Origin: Clostridia bacterium
Lineage (GTDB): Bacteria; Bacillota; Clostridia; Christensenellales; Aristaeellaceae
DNA length: 57,157 nt
Direction: 5' to 3'
NCBI GenBank assembly: GCA_017471885.1
Contig: JAFURI010000087.1
Coordinates: 1-57,157 of the forward strand
Made by a program: the position numbers and the translations under genes. Of the stretch, positions 39,370-49,919 are shown piece by piece (the first letter of the stretch is position 1; each line of letters opens with the position of its first letter). The notes under the pieces are model-generated. The model searched no databases, was not told the DNA's origin, and saw only the letters and a program-made list of their open reading frames with translations.

Positions 39370-40371
39370 ATGATCTCGAGCGTTGCACTTCCCTGGTGGG
39401 CCATGGTGTGCATGGGTGCGGGGCTGGCGGCGTTTATCGCGATGCTGGTGATTTCCATCAAGCGGAATCACGGCGTCAAGCGCTCCCTGTTTGCATCCCC
39501 CTATGCGCTGTGGATGATCATCTTCACCGTGCTTCCGGTGATCCTGATCAGCTATTACGCCTTCACCGACTCCAACGGCGCATTCACCCTGGATAATTTC
39601 AAGAATTTCTGGGACTCCCATTATGAAGCCAACAAGGTCATCGCCGCCGAAGCAGAGCGGCTGGGCGTGGACTACTCCCAGTACATTGTCCGCGGCACGG
39701 TGAACGTAGATACGCTGGTCTATTCCCTGTGGATGGCCTTCCAGTGTACGGTCATCTGCCTGCTGCTGGGCTATCCGGCCGCGCTTTTCATGGCTGACCG
39801 GAAGATGAAGCTGGGCTCCACGCTGGTGGTTCTGTTTATCATTCCCATGTGGATGAACTTCCTCCTGCGCACTATTGCATGGATGAGCCTTCTGGAGGAC
39901 AGCGGCCTGATCAACAGCTTCCTGCGCTGGCTGGGCTTCGACAGCGTGCAGTTGATGTACACCTCCGGCACGGTGCTGCTGGGCATGGTATACAACTTCC
40001 TCCCCTTCATGGTCTTCCCCATCTACACGGTGCTGAACAAGATGGACTACCGTCTGAGCGAGGCCGCCGCTGACCTTGGCTGCAACAGCTGGCAGACGCT
40101 GTATAAGGTGACCATGCCCCTGTCTATCCCGGGTGTGATCAGCGGCATTACCATGGTATTCATGCCCTCTGTCACCACGTTCTTCATTCCCCGTATACTG
40201 GGCGGCAGCTATACCATGATGTTCGGCGACCTGATCGAGAGCAAATTCCTGACCGAGGGCAACTGGAACGCAGGCTCCGCGCTGTCCCTGATCATGATGC
40301 TGCTGATTCTGGTAAGCCTGTCCATCCTGCGCAAGGCTGATCCCAATGGCGAAGGAGGCGGCATTGCATGA
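39370..40371 (+). CDS. potB: Spermidine/putrescine ABC transporter permease PotB
   Basis: The 333-residue permease has a normal PotB core with the cytoplasmic EAA loop (LSEAAADLGCNSWQTLYKVT near residue 235) and about six helices. It also has an extra N-terminal helix (LPWWAMVCMGAGLAAFIAML) not usual for PotB, followed by a basic KRNHGVKR stretch. An internal insertion after the second helix (about 75-115) is charged. The gene starts 4 nt after potA and overlaps potC by 4 nt. Confidence 0.9.
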   Translation: MISSVALPWWAMVCMGAGLAAFIAMLVISIKRNHGVKRSLFASPYALWMIIFTVLPVILISYYAFTDSNGAFTLDNFKNFWDSHYEANKVIAAEAERLGVDYSQYIVRGTVNVDTLVYSLWMAFQCTVICLLLGYPAALFMADRKMKLGSTLVVLFIIPMWMNFLLRTIAWMSLLEDSGLINSFLRWLGFDSVQLMYTSGTVLLGMVYNFLPFMVFPIYTVLNKMDYRLSEAAADLGCNSWQTLYKVTMPLSIPGVISGITMVFMPSVTTFFIPRILGGSYTMMFGDLIESKFLTEGNWNAGSALSLIMMLLILVSLSILRKADPNGEGGGIA

Positions 40372-41141
40372 TGAAGTTCCTCAAGCGCTTCTACCTCGGA
40401 ATCATCATGGTGTTCCTGTACATTCCCATTGTGGTGCTGATTGTGCAGAGCTTCAACGCCGGTGAAAGCCGCGCCAAGTGGGAGGGCTTCTCCCTGCGCT
40501 GGTACGGCGAGCTCCTGCGGGACGAGCGCATCCTGAACGCGCTTTACATCACCGTGTCCATCGCGGTGCTGGCCATGATCATCTCTACCGTGCTGGGCAC
40601 GCTGGCCGCCATCGGCATTCACGCCATGAAGAAGCGTCCTCAGGCCCTGATGATGACCATGACCAACCTGCCCAATACCATGCCCGATATCGTCACCGGT
40701 ATTTCACTGATGCTGCTGTTCCTCTTCACGCAGGTAGACCGCGGCTATGTGACCATGCTGCTGGCGCACATTACCTTTGACACTCCCTACGTCATCCTCT
40801 CCGTGCTGCCGAAGCTGAAGCAGATGAACCGGCACACCTACGAGGCCGCGCTGGATCTGGGCGCTACGCCCATGTACGCGCTGTTCCATGTGATCATCCC
40901 CCAGTGCAAGCAGGGTATCATCACCGGCGCCATGCTGGCCTTTACCCTCTCGCTGGACGATTTCACCATCAGCTACTTCACCACCTCGCCGCTGGTGCAG
41001 AATCTGTCCACGCTGATCTATTCCGCTACGCGTACCGGCATCGATCCTACACTGAACGCACTGTCTGCGCTGATGTTCATCGCGCTGCTTGTGCTGCTGT
41101 TGATCGTCAACCGCCGCACCGCAGAGGATTCCGCACACTGA
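40368..41141 (+). CDS. potC: Spermidine/putrescine ABC transporter permease PotC
   Basis: The 257-residue permease has about six helices (first: LGIIMVFLYIPIVVLIVQSF) and the EAA loop TYEAALDLGATPMYALFHVI near residue 160. FTLSLDDFTISYF is a PotC hallmark. It pairs with PotB in the membrane. The ATG overlaps the potB stop, and potD begins 17 nt downstream. Confidence 0.93.
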   Translation: MMKFLKRFYLGIIMVFLYIPIVVLIVQSFNAGESRAKWEGFSLRWYGELLRDERILNALYITVSIAVLAMIISTVLGTLAAIGIHAMKKRPQALMMTMTNLPNTMPDIVTGISLMLLFLFTQVDRGYVTMLLAHITFDTPYVILSVLPKLKQMNRHTYEAALDLGATPMYALFHVIIPQCKQGIITGAMLAFTLSLDDFTISYFTTSPLVQNLSTLIYSATRTGIDPTLNALSALMFIALLVLLLIVNRRTAEDSAH

Positions 41142-41158
41142 TCAAGGAGGAGATAGTC

Positions 41159-42238
41159 ATGAAAAATCTTTTGAGGGCTGCGCTGACTGCCGTCGTGTGC
41201 CTGTCTCTTGTCTTCTCCTGCACAGCGCTGGCTGATTCCCAGCCCGTGACAGATCAGGTAGTAAACGTCTTCAACTGGGAGGATTACATTGCTCCCGAGG
41301 TACTGACCATTTTTGAAGAAGAGACCGGCATCCATGTAAACTACATGTGCTTTACCACCAACGAGGACATGATTGTTCAGGTGGAGGCCAATCCCGGCGC
41401 GTTTGACTTATGCTTTCCCTCGGACTACATCATCCAGCGCATGATCGCCAAGGACATGCTGGCAGAGATTAACTTTGACAACGTGCCCAATGCGATACAG
41501 ACCATGGATCATCTTCTGAATCCCAGCTATGATCCGGAGAACAAGTACTCCATCCCCTACATGTGGGGTACAGTTGGCATCCTCTATGACGCTTCCCGTC
41601 TCCCTGAGCCGGACAGGAGCTGGTCCATCCTGTGGGATGAGCAGTATCAGAGCAGCATCTTCATGATGGATTCCATCCGCGACAGCTTCGGCGTGACGCT
41701 GAAGTATCTGGGTCAGAGCGTCAACTGCACGGATATTCCTTCCCTCTTCGCCGCCCGCGACAGGCTGATTGATCAGAAACAGCTGGGCGTTGTCAAAGCC
41801 TATCAGGTGGACGAAACCAAGGATAAGATGGTAGCCGGCGAAGGTCTGCTGGCTGTGATGTGGTCCGGCGATGCAATGTACGCCATCGACCTCAACGAGA
41901 ATCTTGACTATTTTGTTCCCCGCGAAGGCTCCAACGTCTGGGTTGACGGCGCGGTGATCCCAAAGACCACCAAGAACAAGGAGAATGCGGAGAAGTTCAT
42001 CAACTTCCTCTGCCGTCCCGATATCGCCGCCATGAACTGGAATTACATCTGGTACTCCACACCCAACAAGGGAGCAATCGCCATCATCGAATCGGAATAT
42101 GAGTACGATTACACATCCAACCACGTGCTCAATCCTTCCGACGAGACACTTGCCACCTGCGAGTTTTTCCAGGACATCAGCGATGATTTCCTCAGCGTAT
42201 ATGAAGCGCTCTGGATGGACGTCAAGAATACCAAGTAA
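41159..42238 (+). CDS. potD: Spermidine/putrescine-binding protein PotD
   Basis: The 359-residue extracellular solute-binding protein has a signal peptide with a Cys (MKNLLRAALTAVVCLSLVFS, then CTALA), so it is probably a lipoprotein. It continues with VVNVFNWEDYIAPEVL, the PotD N-terminal signature, AFDLCFPSDYIIQRMI, YMWGTVGILYD and VPREGSNVWVDGAVIP. Acidic and aromatic residues in these motifs bind polyamines in homologues. AAGGAGGAG precedes the ATG at 41159. A terminator follows. Confidence 0.93.
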   Translation: MKNLLRAALTAVVCLSLVFSCTALADSQPVTDQVVNVFNWEDYIAPEVLTIFEEETGIHVNYMCFTTNEDMIVQVEANPGAFDLCFPSDYIIQRMIAKDMLAEINFDNVPNAIQTMDHLLNPSYDPENKYSIPYMWGTVGILYDASRLPEPDRSWSILWDEQYQSSIFMMDSIRDSFGVTLKYLGQSVNCTDIPSLFAARDRLIDQKQLGVVKAYQVDETKDKMVAGEGLLAVMWSGDAMYAIDLNENLDYFVPREGSNVWVDGAVIPKTTKNKENAEKFINFLCRPDIAAMNWNYIWYSTPNKGAIAIIESEYEYDYTSNHVLNPSDETLATCEFFQDISDDFLSVYEALWMDVKNTK

Positions 42239-43900: not shown

Positions 43901-46900
43901 TTAAATGCGGATAACACCCTCAAAGTCGGTCACAGCATCGCCGGTAAGCCACACCTGACCATCCTTCTCATAGCGTACCACCAGCGTACCGCCAGGCAGC
44001 TGCAGATCAATATCCGAGCCGCGGGTGCACAGACCGGTCTCCACTGCAGCCACAGCCACAGCGCATGCGCCGGTGCCGCAGGCAGCGGTTTCGCCAATGC
44101 CGCGCTCCCAGACGCGCATCCTGATGCTGTTGCCGTCGATTACCTGTGCAAAGGAAACGTTCACACGCTGGGGGAAGAGCGGATCATTCTCAATCACAGG
44201 GCCTACCTGCGCCAGATTGATGCGGTTCACGTCCTCCACAAACATGACCACATGGGGGTTGCCCATGCTCACGCAGCAGATCTCACGCTCCTGACCTGCC
44301 AGATAGACCTTGCGCTGCATCACACGCTCGCCATCCAGCTTGACAGGAACCTCGCTGGGGCTGAAGGCCGGATAACCCATATCCACCAGCACAGAGAACA
44401 CCTCGTCCTCGCGAATGAACAGCTGGGCGCTCTTCACGCCGCTGCCGGTTTCCAGCTTCATCTGATCCTTGCGGACACGACCGGATTCGTACAGGTACTT
44501 TGCCACACAGCGGATGGCGTTGCCGGCCACATAGCCTTCGGAGCCGTCCGCATTGAACATGCGCATCTTCGCATCAGCCTTGTTGCTGGACATAATCAGC
44601 ACAATACCGTCCGCGCCCACGCCGGTACGGCGATTGGACAGGCGAACCGCCAGAGACTTGGCGCTCTCCACGCTCTGCTCGAAGCAGTCGAAGTACAGAT
44701 AGTCGTTGCCGGTGCCGCGCATCTTGACAAAGTGCAGCTTCTTGCGCTCGGTGCGCATATTGTTGATGTCCACCAGCTCCACGTTCTGCAGCGTGTAGCG
44801 GCTGGTCAGCGCATCCACCAGGGCATTGGCGGTATCCAGACTGGTGAACAGCGGGATGCCGCGCTCAACGGCCTTGCGGCGCACGCGCACAGATTCCAGC
44901 AACGGGCTGCGGCCCTTGTTGGAGGTGGAAATCACATACTGCACCTGATTCTTCTCCAGCAGGCTTTCCATGGCGTTATGGCGCACCGTGGCGGCAAACA
45001 GACCGTGCTCCTGCAGGGCCTTTGCCGTGCCGGGAGTAGCAAAGAGATTGAAGCCCAGCTTGGCAAACTTGCGGGCCACGTCGGCCGCTTCCACCTTGTC
45101 CTTGTCGCGGACGGACAGCAGCAGGCCGCCGCTGTGACGCATCTTGTAATTTGCAGCCACAAGGCCCTTGTAGATGGCCTCCTGCAGGTTGGTACCCAGA
45201 CCCAGCACCTCGCCGGTGGACTTCATCTCCGGGCCGAGGTGGGTATCCACGTCAGCCAGCTTTTCGAAGGAGAAGCAGGGCACCTTGACGGCGTAATACG
45301 GGCTCTGACGGTACAGACCAGTGCCGTAGCCCATATCCCTGATCTTCTCGCCCAGCATGGCGCGGACGGCCAGATCCACCATGGGAACGCCCGTCACCTT
45401 GCTGATGTAAGGCACGGTACGGCTGGCACGGGGATTCGCCTCGATGACGTAGACCTCGTTGTGATAAACGATGTACTGAATGTTGATCAGACCCAGCGTG
45501 CCCAGCTCGATGGCAATCTGCTTGGTCACCTCAATCAGGCGCTGCGTCATGGCGCCGGTCAGATTCCATGCAGGATAGACCGCGATGGAGTCGCCGGAGT
45601 GCACGCCTGCAGATTCCACATGCTCCATGATGCCGGGAATCAGCACATCCTCGCCGTCGCAGATAGCGTCGGCCTCGGCCTCAATGCCCTTGAGGTACTG
45701 ATCGATCAGGATCGGATTCTCAATGCCCTGTGCCAGGATGATCTTCATGTACTCCACGATATCGCTATCCTGGTAGGCAATGATCATGTTCTGGCCGCCC
45801 AGCACATAGGAAGGACGCACCAGCACGGGATAGCCCAGCTCGTTGGCAGCCTTCAGCGCTTCCTCGGTGTTCATCACCGTGGTACCCTGAGGACGCTTGA
45901 TGCCGTACTTCTCCATAGCAGCGTCGAAGCGCTCACGATCCTCGGCTGCGTCGATCATATCCGCAGAGGTGCCCAGAATCTTCACGCCGGCCTGCTCCAG
46001 CGCATGGGTCAGCTTGATGGCCGTCTGACCGCCGAAGGCCGCCACCACGCCCACGGGCTTTTCGGTAGCAATCACGCCCAGCACGTCTTCGGGCGTCAGG
46101 GGCTCGAAGTACAGGCGGTCGGCGGTATCAAAGTCGGTGGACACGGTTTCGGGGTTATTGTTGATCATAACCACGTCGTAGCCGGCCTGCTTGAGCATCC
46201 ACACGCAGTGGACGGACGCATAGTCGAACTCAATACCCTGACCGATACGGATGGGGCCGGAGCCAAGCACCATGACGCAGGGCTTCTTGGGACGGCTGGC
46301 AATGAACTGCTCGGCCTCGTTCTCCTCGTCATAGGTAGCGTAGAAATAAGGCGTCTGGGCCGCGAACTCAGCGGCACAGGTATCCACCATCTTATACACG
46401 GGATCGCGGTGGAAAGGCACCTTCTCGCCGGAGAGGCGCTCGATGGCCTTGTCGGGATAGCCCATCTTCTTGGCGGCCATGTAGGTATCGCTGTCGACGT
46501 GGCCTTCCTTCAGGCGGGTTTCCATATCAAACAGGTTCTTGAACTTGTTAAGGAAGAAGTAGTCGATCTTCGTGATCTCGTGCAGCTGCTCCAGGCTCAC
46601 GCCGCGGGCAATCGCCTCATACACGGCGAACATGCGCTGGTCGGTGCACTTGCCGATCAGCTCGATCAGCTCTTCATCATTCAGCTCCGCCATGGCCTTC
46701 ATGCGCATGGTGTCGCAGCCGATTTCCGCGCCGCGGACGGCCTTCATCAGCGCCTGCTCTACGCTCACGCCAATGGACATCACCTCGCCCGTGGCCTTCA
46801 TCTGGGTGCCCAGCGTACGCTTGCCGTACACAAACTTGTCAAAGGGCCACTTGGGCACCTTGGCCACGATATAGTCGATGGTGGGTTCAAAGCCGGCGAT

Positions 46901-47926
46901 GGTCTTGCCGGTCAGCGCGTTCTTGATCTCGTCCATCGTGTAGCCGATGGCGATCTGCGCAGCGCACTTGGCAATGGGGAAGCCCGTTGCCTTGGAGGCT
47001 AGCGCGGAGGAACGGCTCACGCGGGGATTAACCTCGATGACGGCATACTCAAAGGAATCAGGATGCAGGGCAAACTGGCAGTTGCAGCCGCCTTCCACCT
47101 CCAGCGCAGTCACAATATCCAGCGCAGCGCGGCGAAGCATCTGATACTCAGCGGTATCCAGCGTCATGGCGGGAGCCACCACGATGGAGTCGCCGGTATG
47201 CACGCCCACAGGGTCGATGTTCTCCATGGAGCACACGGCGATCACGTTGCCCTTGCTGTCGCGCATGACCTCACACTCGATTTCCTTCCAGCCGGAGATG
47301 CACTTCTCCACCAGAATCTGGGTGATGGGGCTCAGTCGCAGACCGTTGGCTGCAATCTCGCGAAGCTCCTCCTCATTCTGGCAGATGCCGCCGCCCTCGC
47401 CGCCCATGGTGAAGGCAGGACGCACAATCACAGGGTAGCCGATCTTCTCTGCCAGCGTCAGCGCGTCCTCCAGGGTTTCCACCACGTCGGAGGGAATGCA
47501 GGGCTGGTGGATGGACTCCATGGTTTCCTTGAACTTGAGACGATCCTCCGCTTTCTCGATGGTCTCACACTTGGCGCCCAGCAGCTTCACGCCATGCTGA
47601 TCAAGGAAACCCTCCTTGGCCAGCTGCATGGACAGGGTCAGGCCGCTCTGGCCGCCCAGCGTGGACAGCAGACTGTCAGGCTTTTCCTTCAGAATGATGC
47701 GGCGCAGCACGTCCAGAGACAGGGGCTCGATGTAAATGTGATCCGCAGAGGAATGGTCGGTCTGGATGGTGGCCGGATTGGGATTGACCAGCACCACCTC
47801 AAGACCTGCAGCCTTCAGCGCACGGCAGGCCTGAGAACCGGCATAGTCAAACTCTGCGGCCTGACCGATCACGATGGGGCCGGAACCAATGATCATGACT
47901 TTTTTCAGTTCAGGATTCAGCGGCAT
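43901..47926 (-). CDS. carB: Carbamoyl-phosphate synthase large subunit fused to a diaminopimelate-epimerase-like domain
   Basis: One open frame of 1341 residues. Residues 1 to about 1056 are a full CarB: IGSGPIVIGQAAEFDYAGSQ, two ATP-grasp halves (RPAFTMGGEGGG; RPSYVLGGQNM), a second GSGPIRIGQGIEFDYAS near 560, and the C-terminal MGS-like allosteric domain. From about 1062 the frame continues as DapF: KMRGTGNDYLYFD, NADGSEGYVAGNAIRCVAKY and ETAACGTGACA. DapF uses two Cys; the second is present (Cys1283), but the first, normally in the MCGN motif, is Ala1134 here. CarB makes carbamoyl phosphate from bicarbonate, ammonia and ATP. The start overlaps carA, with GGAGG upstream. Confidence 0.95.
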   Translation of the reverse strand: MPLNPELKKVMIIGSGPIVIGQAAEFDYAGSQACRALKAAGLEVVLVNPNPATIQTDHSSADHIYIEPLSLDVLRRIILKEKPDSLLSTLGGQSGLTLSMQLAKEGFLDQHGVKLLGAKCETIEKAEDRLKFKETMESIHQPCIPSDVVETLEDALTLAEKIGYPVIVRPAFTMGGEGGGICQNEEELREIAANGLRLSPITQILVEKCISGWKEIECEVMRDSKGNVIAVCSMENIDPVGVHTGDSIVVAPAMTLDTAEYQMLRRAALDIVTALEVEGGCNCQFALHPDSFEYAVIEVNPRVSRSSALASKATGFPIAKCAAQIAIGYTMDEIKNALTGKTIAGFEPTIDYIVAKVPKWPFDKFVYGKRTLGTQMKATGEVMSIGVSVEQALMKAVRGAEIGCDTMRMKAMAELNDEELIELIGKCTDQRMFAVYEAIARGVSLEQLHEITKIDYFFLNKFKNLFDMETRLKEGHVDSDTYMAAKKMGYPDKAIERLSGEKVPFHRDPVYKMVDTCAAEFAAQTPYFYATYDEENEAEQFIASRPKKPCVMVLGSGPIRIGQGIEFDYASVHCVWMLKQAGYDVVMINNNPETVSTDFDTADRLYFEPLTPEDVLGVIATEKPVGVVAAFGGQTAIKLTHALEQAGVKILGTSADMIDAAEDRERFDAAMEKYGIKRPQGTTVMNTEEALKAANELGYPVLVRPSYVLGGQNMIIAYQDSDIVEYMKIILAQGIENPILIDQYLKGIEAEADAICDGEDVLIPGIMEHVESAGVHSGDSIAVYPAWNLTGAMTQRLIEVTKQIAIELGTLGLINIQYIVYHNEVYVIEANPRASRTVPYISKVTGVPMVDLAVRAMLGEKIRDMGYGTGLYRQSPYYAVKVPCFSFEKLADVDTHLGPEMKSTGEVLGLGTNLQEAIYKGLVAANYKMRHSGGLLLSVRDKDKVEAADVARKFAKLGFNLFATPGTAKALQEHGLFAATVRHNAMESLLEKNQVQYVISTSNKGRSPLLESVRVRRKAVERGIPLFTSLDTANALVDALTSRYTLQNVELVDINNMRTERKKLHFVKMRGTGNDYLYFDCFEQSVESAKSLAVRLSNRRTGVGADGIVLIMSSNKADAKMRMFNADGSEGYVAGNAIRCVAKYLYESGRVRKDQMKLETGSGVKSAQLFIREDEVFSVLVDMGYPAFSPSEVPVKLDGERVMQRKVYLAGQEREICCVSMGNPHVVMFVEDVNRINLAQVGPVIENDPLFPQRVNVSFAQVIDGNSIRMRVWERGIGETAACGTGACAVAVAAVETGLCTRGSDIDLQLPGGTLVVRYEKDGQVWLTGDAVTDFEGVIRI

Positions 47927-49005
47927 TCCTTATTACCTCCCATCAGCGCAATAAAGCGGTCGTAGATGCAACGGGTATCCATGGGGCCGCCGCAGGCTTC
48001 CGGCTGGAACTGCACGGAGAACGCGGGCATATCGCTGTAATCCAGGCCCTCGCAGCTGCCGTCGTTGCGGTTGACAAAACGGAGGATCACGTTCTCCGGC
48101 AGCTGCGTATGATCCACAGCGTAGCCGTGATTCTGGCTGGAAATATAGTTCAGCCCGGTGATTACGTCCTTCACAGGCTGATTTCCGCCGCGATGACCGT
48201 ACTGCAGCTTCAGGGTGGTGCAGCCCTGGCTCATGGCCAGCAGCTGATGACCCAGGCCAACGCCCATCACAGGCAGCTTTTCCTCGCACAGCATGGCGAT
48301 CTCGCGGACGATCTCCTCATTGTCCGCAGGATTGCCCGCACCGTTGGAGATCAGTACGCCGTCAGGATTCAGTGAAAGAATATCCTTCGCGGTATAGGAT
48401 GCAGGCACGCAGGTTACCGCGCAGCTGCGCTTTTCCATCTCAGTCTGACCATTGCCCCTTGCGCCAAGATCCCACAGGACAACGTTGTACATGCCCTTGG
48501 TGCGGGGGAGCTGCACTTCCTTGCAGGTATGCGCATCAACGCTGGGATGGAAGCCCATCTCCTTCAGCTGAGCAACCACCTCATCGGCGTTCTCGGGCTT
48601 TTCGGTCAGGATGGCGGCGTTCATTACGCCCTTGTCGCGCAGCTTACGGGTCAGGGCACGGGTATCCACGCCGGTCAGCGCCGTCACGCCGTACTCCTTC
48701 AGATAATCGTCCAGCTTGCCCGTGCAGCGGAAATTGCAGGGCTGATCGGTGATTTCACGCGCTACATAGCCGGACAGCACCGGATTGGGACAACCCTCTT
48801 CCCGCGGAATCACGCCGTAGTTGCCTATGCAGGGAAAGGTCTGCACCACAATCTGGCCCGCATAGCAGGGATCCGTCAGGGTTTCCATGTATCCGACCAC
48901 AGAGGTGTTAAAGACCAGTTCCGCCATGGCGCACTTCTGTGCACCCCGCAGCTCGCCCTCGTACAGGGAGCCGTCTTCCAGCAGCAGATAACCCTTCTTC
49001 GCCAT
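47917..49005 (-). CDS. carA: Carbamoyl-phosphate synthase small subunit, glutaminase site lost
   Basis: The 362-residue protein has the CarA N-terminal domain (AELVFNTSVVGYMETLTDPC, GYVAREI, GVTALTGVDTRALTRKLR) and a class I glutamine amidotransferase fold. The nucleophile motif reads GVGLGHQ with Gly250 where the Cys of CLGHQ should be, and the catalytic His is Gln334 (SVQFQPEA instead of QFHPEA); Glu336 is kept. It should therefore not hydrolyse glutamine, and the synthase would depend on free ammonia. Retained fold and operon position argue that it still binds CarB. It starts 3 nt after argF and overlaps carB by 10 nt. Confidence 0.92.
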   Translation of the reverse strand: MAKKGYLLLEDGSLYEGELRGAQKCAMAELVFNTSVVGYMETLTDPCYAGQIVVQTFPCIGNYGVIPREEGCPNPVLSGYVAREITDQPCNFRCTGKLDDYLKEYGVTALTGVDTRALTRKLRDKGVMNAAILTEKPENADEVVAQLKEMGFHPSVDAHTCKEVQLPRTKGMYNVVLWDLGARGNGQTEMEKRSCAVTCVPASYTAKDILSLNPDGVLISNGAGNPADNEEIVREIAMLCEEKLPVMGVGLGHQLLAMSQGCTTLKLQYGHRGGNQPVKDVITGLNYISSQNHGYAVDHTQLPENVILRFVNRNDGSCEGLDYSDMPAFSVQFQPEACGGPMDTRCIYDRFIALMGGNKECR

Positions 49006-49007
49006 GC

Positions 49008-49919
49008 TTACTCCCCCTTCATCACAGCGACCATAACGGCCTTCTGGGCATGCAGACGATTCTCGGCCTCGTCAAAGATCTCATCCGCATGAGCTTCGAA
49101 CACGTCCGCGGTAATCTCCTCGCCGCGGTGAGCAGGCAGGCAGTGCTGCACCATACATCCGGGATGCGCCTGCGCCATCAGCTCTGCGTTGACCTGATAG
49201 CCTGCAAAAGCCTTTTCGCGGATCTCCTTCTCACCCTCCTGACCCATGGAAGCCCATACGTCGGTGAAGATAACGTCTGCATCCTTCGCCGCCTCCATGG
49301 GCTTGTCGGTCATGAAGAACATGCCGGGATATTCCTTCGTAAATTCCAGCACCTTCTGATCAGGCTGATAGGCCTCAGGACAGGCAATGGACACATGGCA
49401 GCCCATCTTCAGGAAACCTACGATGAGGCTGTTGGCCATGTTGTTGCCGTCGCCGATGTAGCACATATTCAGGCCTTCCAGCCTGCCCTTGTGCTCGCGG
49501 ACCGTCTGCAGATCCGCCAGCACCTGACAGGGATGGCAGAAGTCCGTCAGGCCGTTGATAATCGGGATGCTGCCGTAACGGGCCAGCGTTTCCACTTCCT
49601 CCTGCTCAAAGGTGCGGATCATAATGCCGTCCAGATAGCGGCTCAGCACGCGGGCGGTATCCTCCACGGGCTCGCCGCGGCCGATCTGCAGATCCTTGCT
49701 GGAGAGGAACAGCGCATGTCCGCCCAGCTGGTACATACCCGTTTCAAAGCTGACGCGGGTACGGGTAGAAGATTTTTCAAAGATCATGCCCAGAGTCTTT
49801 CCCTGAAGGATCGGGTGAGGTATCCCTGCCTTGTTGTCGGCCTTGAGCTTGTCCGCCAAGTCAAGCAGCTCCTTGATTTCACCGGGGGTCAGATCAAGCA
49901 GCTTCAGCAGATGCTTCAT
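49008..49919 (-). CDS. argF: Ornithine carbamoyltransferase
   Basis: The 303-residue enzyme transfers the carbamoyl group to ornithine to give citrulline. Visible: the carbamoyl-phosphate loop KSSTRTRVSFE near residue 50, DGIMIRTFEQEEVE, LTDFCHPCQVLADLQT, and the ornithine-binding HCLPAHRGEEIT near 270. It is the first gene of an operon with carA and carB, so the carbamoyl phosphate made there is expected to go to arginine synthesis (or citrulline turnover). AAGGCGG precedes the start. Confidence 0.93.
   Translation of the reverse strand: MKHLLKLLDLTPGEIKELLDLADKLKADNKAGIPHPILQGKTLGMIFEKSSTRTRVSFETGMYQLGGHALFLSSKDLQIGRGEPVEDTARVLSRYLDGIMIRTFEQEEVETLARYGSIPIINGLTDFCHPCQVLADLQTVREHKGRLEGLNMCYIGDGNNMANSLIVGFLKMGCHVSIACPEAYQPDQKVLEFTKEYPGMFFMTDKPMEAAKDADVIFTDVWASMGQEGEKEIREKAFAGYQVNAELMAQAHPGCMVQHCLPAHRGEEITADVFEAHADEIFDEAENRLHAQKAVMVAVMKGE

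Follow-up and report, generated by a model that had tools for sequence, protein, structure and literature searches.

The carbamoyl phosphate synthetase (CPS) encoded in the window, by which we mean the whole 57,157-nucleotide stretch of DNA analysed here, probably combines a glutaminase-dead small subunit (CarA), kept as a partner, with a large subunit (CarB) fed by free ammonia, and this switch appears to have been repeated in the window's order together with glutaminase losses in other nucleotide-making amidotransferases. It can be proposed that the disappearance of the nucleophile, the base, and Ser47 would abolish glutamine hydrolysis by CarA, that free ammonia would feed an intact CarB, and that CarA would stay because CarB needs a structural, perhaps allosteric, partner. 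A bacterial clade devoid of glutamine-dependent CPS, with intact sisters adjacent to it, would be a natural experiment in the conversion of an amidotransferase into an ammonia enzyme, and the clade and its repeats in other families bear on whether the replacement of the nucleophile by glycine is adaptive. If the ammonia reading is true, it predicts bacteria that rely on free ammonia for both pyrimidines and arginine. Moreover, the label "glutamine-hydrolyzing" would be wrong for a share of the CarAs in this order.

The carA gene lies on the minus strand at positions 47917-49005 and encodes 362 amino acids, as assigned from the translation and family profile models. The protein scores above the curated cut-offs of NF009475 (395.2 versus 221 bits) and TIGR01368 (367.5 versus 307.35 bits), and its PF00117 match of 117 bits is also above the cut-off. 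Both the full-length profile match and the adjacency of carB on the same strand are those of a glutamine-hydrolysing CarA, whereas the Cys-His-Glu triad reads Gly, Gln, and Glu. Residues were numbered by alignment to the E. coli CarA taken from PDB matches; all codons given here are read on the minus strand. Codon 250 (48256-48258) is GGC, placing Gly where the nucleophile Cys269 is expected, and codon 334 (48004-48006) is CAG, placing Gln at His353, so that the codons and the alignment agree with a preliminary description of this DNA; the equivalent of Glu355 is retained (codon 336, GAA, 47998-48000). That description had reported the loss of these two catalytic residues, and both losses stand, but the account was incomplete, since further pocket residues are changed too. 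Codon 47 (48865-48867) is TGC, giving Cys instead of Ser47, a position that presumably has a role in glutamine binding. Codons 221-225 (48331-48345), which we take to be the oxyanion loop, read NGAGN instead of NGPGD, with Pro242 replaced by Ala and Asp244 by Asn (NGAGNP for NGPGDP). The second of these replacements means little, because Asn also occupies this place in 19 of the 131 intact CarAs of the order set. At the ammonia-tunnel position, Gly293 in E. coli, codon 274 (48184-48186) encodes Gly. In E. coli, Cys269 has reportedly been replaced by Gly and Ser (Rubino et al., 1986). Collectively, the glutaminase site of the window CarA is predicted to be dead; Cys269 and His353 of the E. coli enzyme are described as essential for glutamine hydrolysis (PMC6245113).

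The preliminary description had proposed an alignment of CarAs from relatives, and such an alignment shows the loss in most members of the genus. CarA was found in 17 of the 18 genomes of the genus, with G184 yielding none, and 15 of the 17, the window included, combine Cys-to-Gly with loss of His; as genomes of related species they are not independent, and many are incomplete (77% completeness for the window's genome). The place of His is taken by Gln, Met, or Leu, and the equivalent of Glu355 is kept in the window only; in each of the remaining 14 this place is occupied by Ala or Gln. Intact CarAs are found in G162 and G111 of the same genus and in the near relatives G008, G002, and G033, which belong to other genera. 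Ser at position 47 is present in all five of these intact proteins and in none of the 15 dead ones, and tunnel position 293 is Ala in the five and Gly in the 15. Pro242 is lost in 13 of the 15, and the equivalents of Gln273 and Asn311, assumed here to be glutamine contacts, are retained in all of them. A CarA tree from which most active-site columns had been left out joins the 15 dead proteins in one clade with an SH-aLRT support of 97; together with the intact CarA of G162 they form a group supported at 99. Cys and His were both present at every one of the 80 best-matching loci, which are the best 80 of 591 and thus relatives.

The incompleteness of the window's genome (77%, 145 contigs) might suggest that the loss is an error of sequencing or binning, or that carA is a pseudogene. 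This explanation is scarcely credible and can be rejected, since the window shares its loss with 14 more genus members in one supported clade; open frames and purifying selection also stand against it. The frames of all 15 dead carA genes of the genus are open and without stops. Among pairs with dS below 0.5, the 11 dead ones, ten of which come from the genus, have GATase-domain omega values of 0.10-0.27, and the seven intact ones have values of 0.02-0.29, five of them below 0.1, so that close dead pairs tend to lie above most close intact ones. Medians of dN/dS over all pairs (0.37 for dead, 0.36 for live) are saturated and were set aside in favour of these close pairs. The view that the gene is a pseudo-glutaminase rather than a decayed gene is thus upheld by the 15-genome clade, the open frames, and the omega values. 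Selection on dead CarA is relaxed and the gene is maintained.

It may also be considered that CarA is drifting towards loss as a mere passenger of a CarB that needs no glutaminase, and that deletion may already have happened in G013, G318, and G345. Full CarB without any CarA found is present in these three relatives (loci L401, L402, and L403, respectively), where carB lies among pyr genes; in G013 and G345, unlike G318, it comes directly after a pyrC-like gene, and no CarA-like open reading frame was found upstream of carB at the G318 locus. The median ratio of CarA to CarB divergence, which is 3.2 for dead CarA (78 pairs, 13 genomes) and 2.1 for intact CarA (10 pairs, 5 genomes), and the higher omega of the close dead pairs point in this direction too. 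Drift towards loss is nevertheless unlikely in view of the stop-free frames in all 15 genomes and the low omega of the GATase domain, and omega does not differ consistently when the GATase half of CarA is compared with its N-terminal half.

The surroundings of carA are those of an operon, as had been described previously, with the order argF-carA-carB on the minus strand. An argF-type ornithine carbamoyltransferase gene, identified from its reading frame and matches, lies immediately upstream of carA (49008-49919, minus strand), and an argF-type match was found at 30 of 41 loci. The carB gene (43901-47926, minus strand) is fused in frame to dapF, as deduced from the reading frame and profile matches: the 1341-residue product contains a CarB part at about residues 1-1044 and a DapF (diaminopimelate epimerase) part at residues 1065-1339. 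Among the 41 loci, carB-dapF forms a single frame in 30, is unfused in six, and is undecidable in five cut loci; the two are split in G166 (L149) and unfused in G163 (L159 and L160). The CarB gate residues Cys232, Ala251, and Ala314 (E. coli numbering) are conserved in the window according to an alignment counted by eye, and CarB identity among the genus members compared is 87-90%, second copies aside. The gate residues of the CarB tunnel and the role of Gly293 are named in PMC4655335. From its sequence, the window CarB is judged to be intact. Elsewhere in the window, positions 39370-42238 carry genes resembling a polyamine-type ABC transporter, with two permeases and a binding protein, as read from the open reading frames only.

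Since the hydrolysis chemistry appears to be dead and no other source of carbamoyl phosphate was found in the genomes checked, free ammonia is most likely what the window CarAB uses to make this compound, as the preliminary description had proposed. The dead protein is the sole CarA found in 14 of the 15 dead genomes of the genus. The remaining genome, G206, has a second, intact CarA (L139, contig C103), with full-length GuaA and PyrG encoded on the same contig; this CarA copy pairs in the tree with a second copy of G096, from another genus, and the contamination of G206 is 7%. The contig may therefore be misbinned. A bypass through carbamate kinase was considered and discarded, as a profile search of 18 genomes gave no match above the cut-off of 358 bits and only weak ones of 20-34 bits in 12 of them; every one of the 14 controls gave a match of some kind, two of them above the cut-off. 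Matches to PF02729, a profile that does not separate ornithine from aspartate carbamoyltransferases (OTC and ATC), were obtained in 17 of 18 genomes, and at least two were present in six of the seven dead genus genomes checked, with one in G024. No PF02729 match was obtained in G369, which is 81% complete and in which dead CarA is the only CarA found. In the window's genome, PyrB-, PyrE-, and PyrK-like genes were recognised by eye on contig C16.

The loss of the CarA glutaminase seems to have arisen repeatedly in the window's order of uncultured bacteria, which is probably Christensenellales (with Aristaeellaceae as the probable family), so that dead CarA is not the oddity of a single gene that it had first appeared to be; the recurrent change is mostly Cys to Gly. 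The order sample comprised 200 genomes, 123 of which gave a match, some of the matches being other amidotransferases. Together with the genus and family loci, and after removal of repeats and of matches shorter than 150 residues, it provided 170 distinct CarAs; this set takes in only part of the listed matches and the sample is not random. The 170 are divided into 131 intact, 34 without Cys, three without His only, and two incomplete sequences, and Cys is replaced by Gly in 30 of the 34, by Ser in two, and by Asp and Ala in one each. Forty further CarAs of the family, mostly weaker matches, added 29 intact proteins, ten without Cys (eight with Gly), and one with a gap at His. Cys is accordingly absent from 44 of 210 CarAs of the order, 38 times as Gly, in what is a non-random sample.

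Parsimony requires at least 15 changes for the loss of Cys or His on the 170-row tree, against 17 when the two incomplete rows are taken as dead, and at least 19 changes for the loss of Cys on the 210-row FastTree; single placements of loss events are unsure on the long branches. Three Gly-to-Cys steps were placed on the 210-row tree, and these more likely represent extra losses rather than regains. First losses lead to Gly in 11 of 14 cases on the 170-row tree and in 12 of 16 on the 210-row tree. For the former, p is about 1e-7 against an expectation of one in seven missense neighbours of the Cys codon, assuming independent events. Across independent pairs, Ser47 tends to be lost where the triad is lost (median p 0.004), and Gln273 is also lost in eight of the 34 Cys-less rows. 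Gly at position 293 had been considered as a general signature of dead CarA; although it tells dead from intact proteins within the genus, it fails to do so over the 210 rows, where it is found in 23 of the 44 CarAs without Cys and in 68 of the 166 that have Cys, and the paired test is only suggestive (median p 0.06). Among 32 loci picked out by a Cys-to-Gly DNA pattern, 13 were without CarA and were taken as chance. In addition, G421 carries a tandem pair of CarA genes (L263, contig C87, 3084-5237), which are close paralogues and both have Cys and His.

Speculatively, the replacement of Cys by Gly, combined with smaller residues at Ser47, Pro242, and 293, could turn the former glutamine pocket into an open port through which ammonia would enter the ancestral tunnel to CarB. 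In favour of such a port are the Gly at position 293 in all 15 dead proteins of the genus and the lowered ammonia Km of the Plasmodium GMP synthetase mutant described below. Outside the genus this port idea is weak, because dead and intact CarAs are not told apart by position 293 and the paired test stays at the median p given above. Dead CarA might still bind glutamine, because the equivalents of Gln273 and Asn311 are kept throughout the 15 dead genus proteins. This retention, and the purifying selection on CarA, would also suit a glutamine sensor that binds glutamine without hydrolysis and sets the activity of CarB, with CarB taking up ammonia by its own route, a reading that is compatible with ammonia use. 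Such a sensor is rather unlikely, as Ser47 is lost in all 15 and Pro242 in 13 of the dead genus CarAs, and Gln273 is gone from the eight Cys-less rows of the order set mentioned above.

The inferred ammonia use of the window CarAB departs from what is described for bacteria. According to PMC6245113, glutamine is the donor that matters in E. coli, a statement extended there to all bacterial CPSases, and the E. coli enzyme prefers glutamine, using ammonia only at very high concentration. Likewise, all CPS types except CPS1 are said to use glutamine (PMC4655335); both sources thus take glutamine dependence as the rule for bacterial CPS and set CPS1 apart, and the present clade would depart from this. 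In general, the ammonia of CPS may come from outside or from the glutaminase (PMC6022934). Searches of the literature were made partly with very narrow phrases, and none of the matches listed describes a bacterial CarA whose glutaminase is dead, in line with the preliminary description, which knew of none with both residues changed; no CarB-DapF fusion and no GATase-less bacterial GuaA were found among them either.

The E. coli CarA (CPS II) is, like the window CarA, partnered by CarB, and the two are homologous over both domains, with Cys269, His353, and Ser47 in the former corresponding to Gly, Gln, and Cys in the latter. The dead glutaminase site deduced for the window CarA is a feature of CPS I, whereas the single glutaminase-synthetase chain of CPS I is absent, carA and carB being separate genes. 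Vertebrate CPS1 retains a glutaminase-like domain that is dead, uses ammonia, and needs N-acetylglutamate (PMC4655335). It is one chain with a Cys-to-Ser change, unlike the two subunits of the window, in which Cys is Gly and His is lost as well. The preliminary description had attributed the dead site of CPS1 to a single Cys change, which does not hold for human CPS1, as it differs by more than Cys to Ser according to PMC4655335; in the same source, the CPS1 tunnel is blocked by Gln318 at the position of Gly293, where the window CarA has Gly. The window CarA resembles CPS1 in outcome and is of independent origin. For the CPS III of the fish Alcolapia, a convergent shift to ammonia has been proposed from sequence, although the catalytic triad is kept there and one binding residue is changed (PMC7657897), whereas the window CarA has lost Cys and His. 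Outside CPS, the NAD synthetase family includes ammonia-using amidotransferases (PMC3376133), and a Plasmodium GMP synthetase, working on free ammonia in a double mutant that has lost a second Cys besides the catalytic one (Cys to Ala), shows an NH4Cl Km 6.7-fold below that of the wild type (PMC9312489).

Other amidotransferases were searched in 30 genomes, namely 12 from among the 15 genus members with dead CarA, eight others with dead CarA, two without CarA, and eight that showed intact CarA only. No CTP synthase domain was found in 16 of the 22 genomes with dead or no CarA, including 10 of the 12 from the genus, and all eight intact ones have it, relatedness not being allowed for in this comparison. 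G024 has a CTP synthase with Cys replaced by Gly and His kept, and three genomes with intact CarA (G111, G008, and G033) carry one of this type as their second copy (loci L365 and L367-L369). GMP synthase is without a GATase in nine dead genus genomes (G000, G064, G024, G148, G174, G203, G194, G204, and G201), and likely also in G206, as judged from frame length; such loci in the genus and some relatives are L387 (G000, contig C83), L389-L397, and L398-L400. In G131 and G089, only a GuaA-like form of about 490 residues with a degenerate GATase was seen. The GATase-less GMP synthase, the missing or Cys-to-Gly CTP synthase, and CarB without CarA all point the same way, towards the use of ammonia. 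Whether the order repeatedly turned CarA, GMP synthase, and CTP synthase into free-ammonia enzymes, by Cys to Gly or by glutaminase deletion and with Gly making the ammonia port, is a broader proposal that we hold tentatively, at slightly less than an even chance.

HisH (in G000, G064, and G148) and TrpG-type proteins (in G000 and G203) retain Cys and His, and glutamine would still be used by these bacteria because both are intact where seen. The presence in the genus of HisH, TrpG, and PuuD-type proteins with Cys could also suggest that another glutaminase feeds ammonia to CarB in trans. This is very unlikely, as a PF00117 search of G064, which is 96% complete, gives just three members, one of them being CarA, and we know of no HisH, TrpG, or PuuD-type protein that docks on CarB. 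The same profile revealed no separate GMP-synthase glutaminase in G064. Full-length GuaA was found in seven of the eight intact-CarA genomes, whereas G002 showed the short form only, and in some of these genomes a short GuaA is present beside the full-length one.
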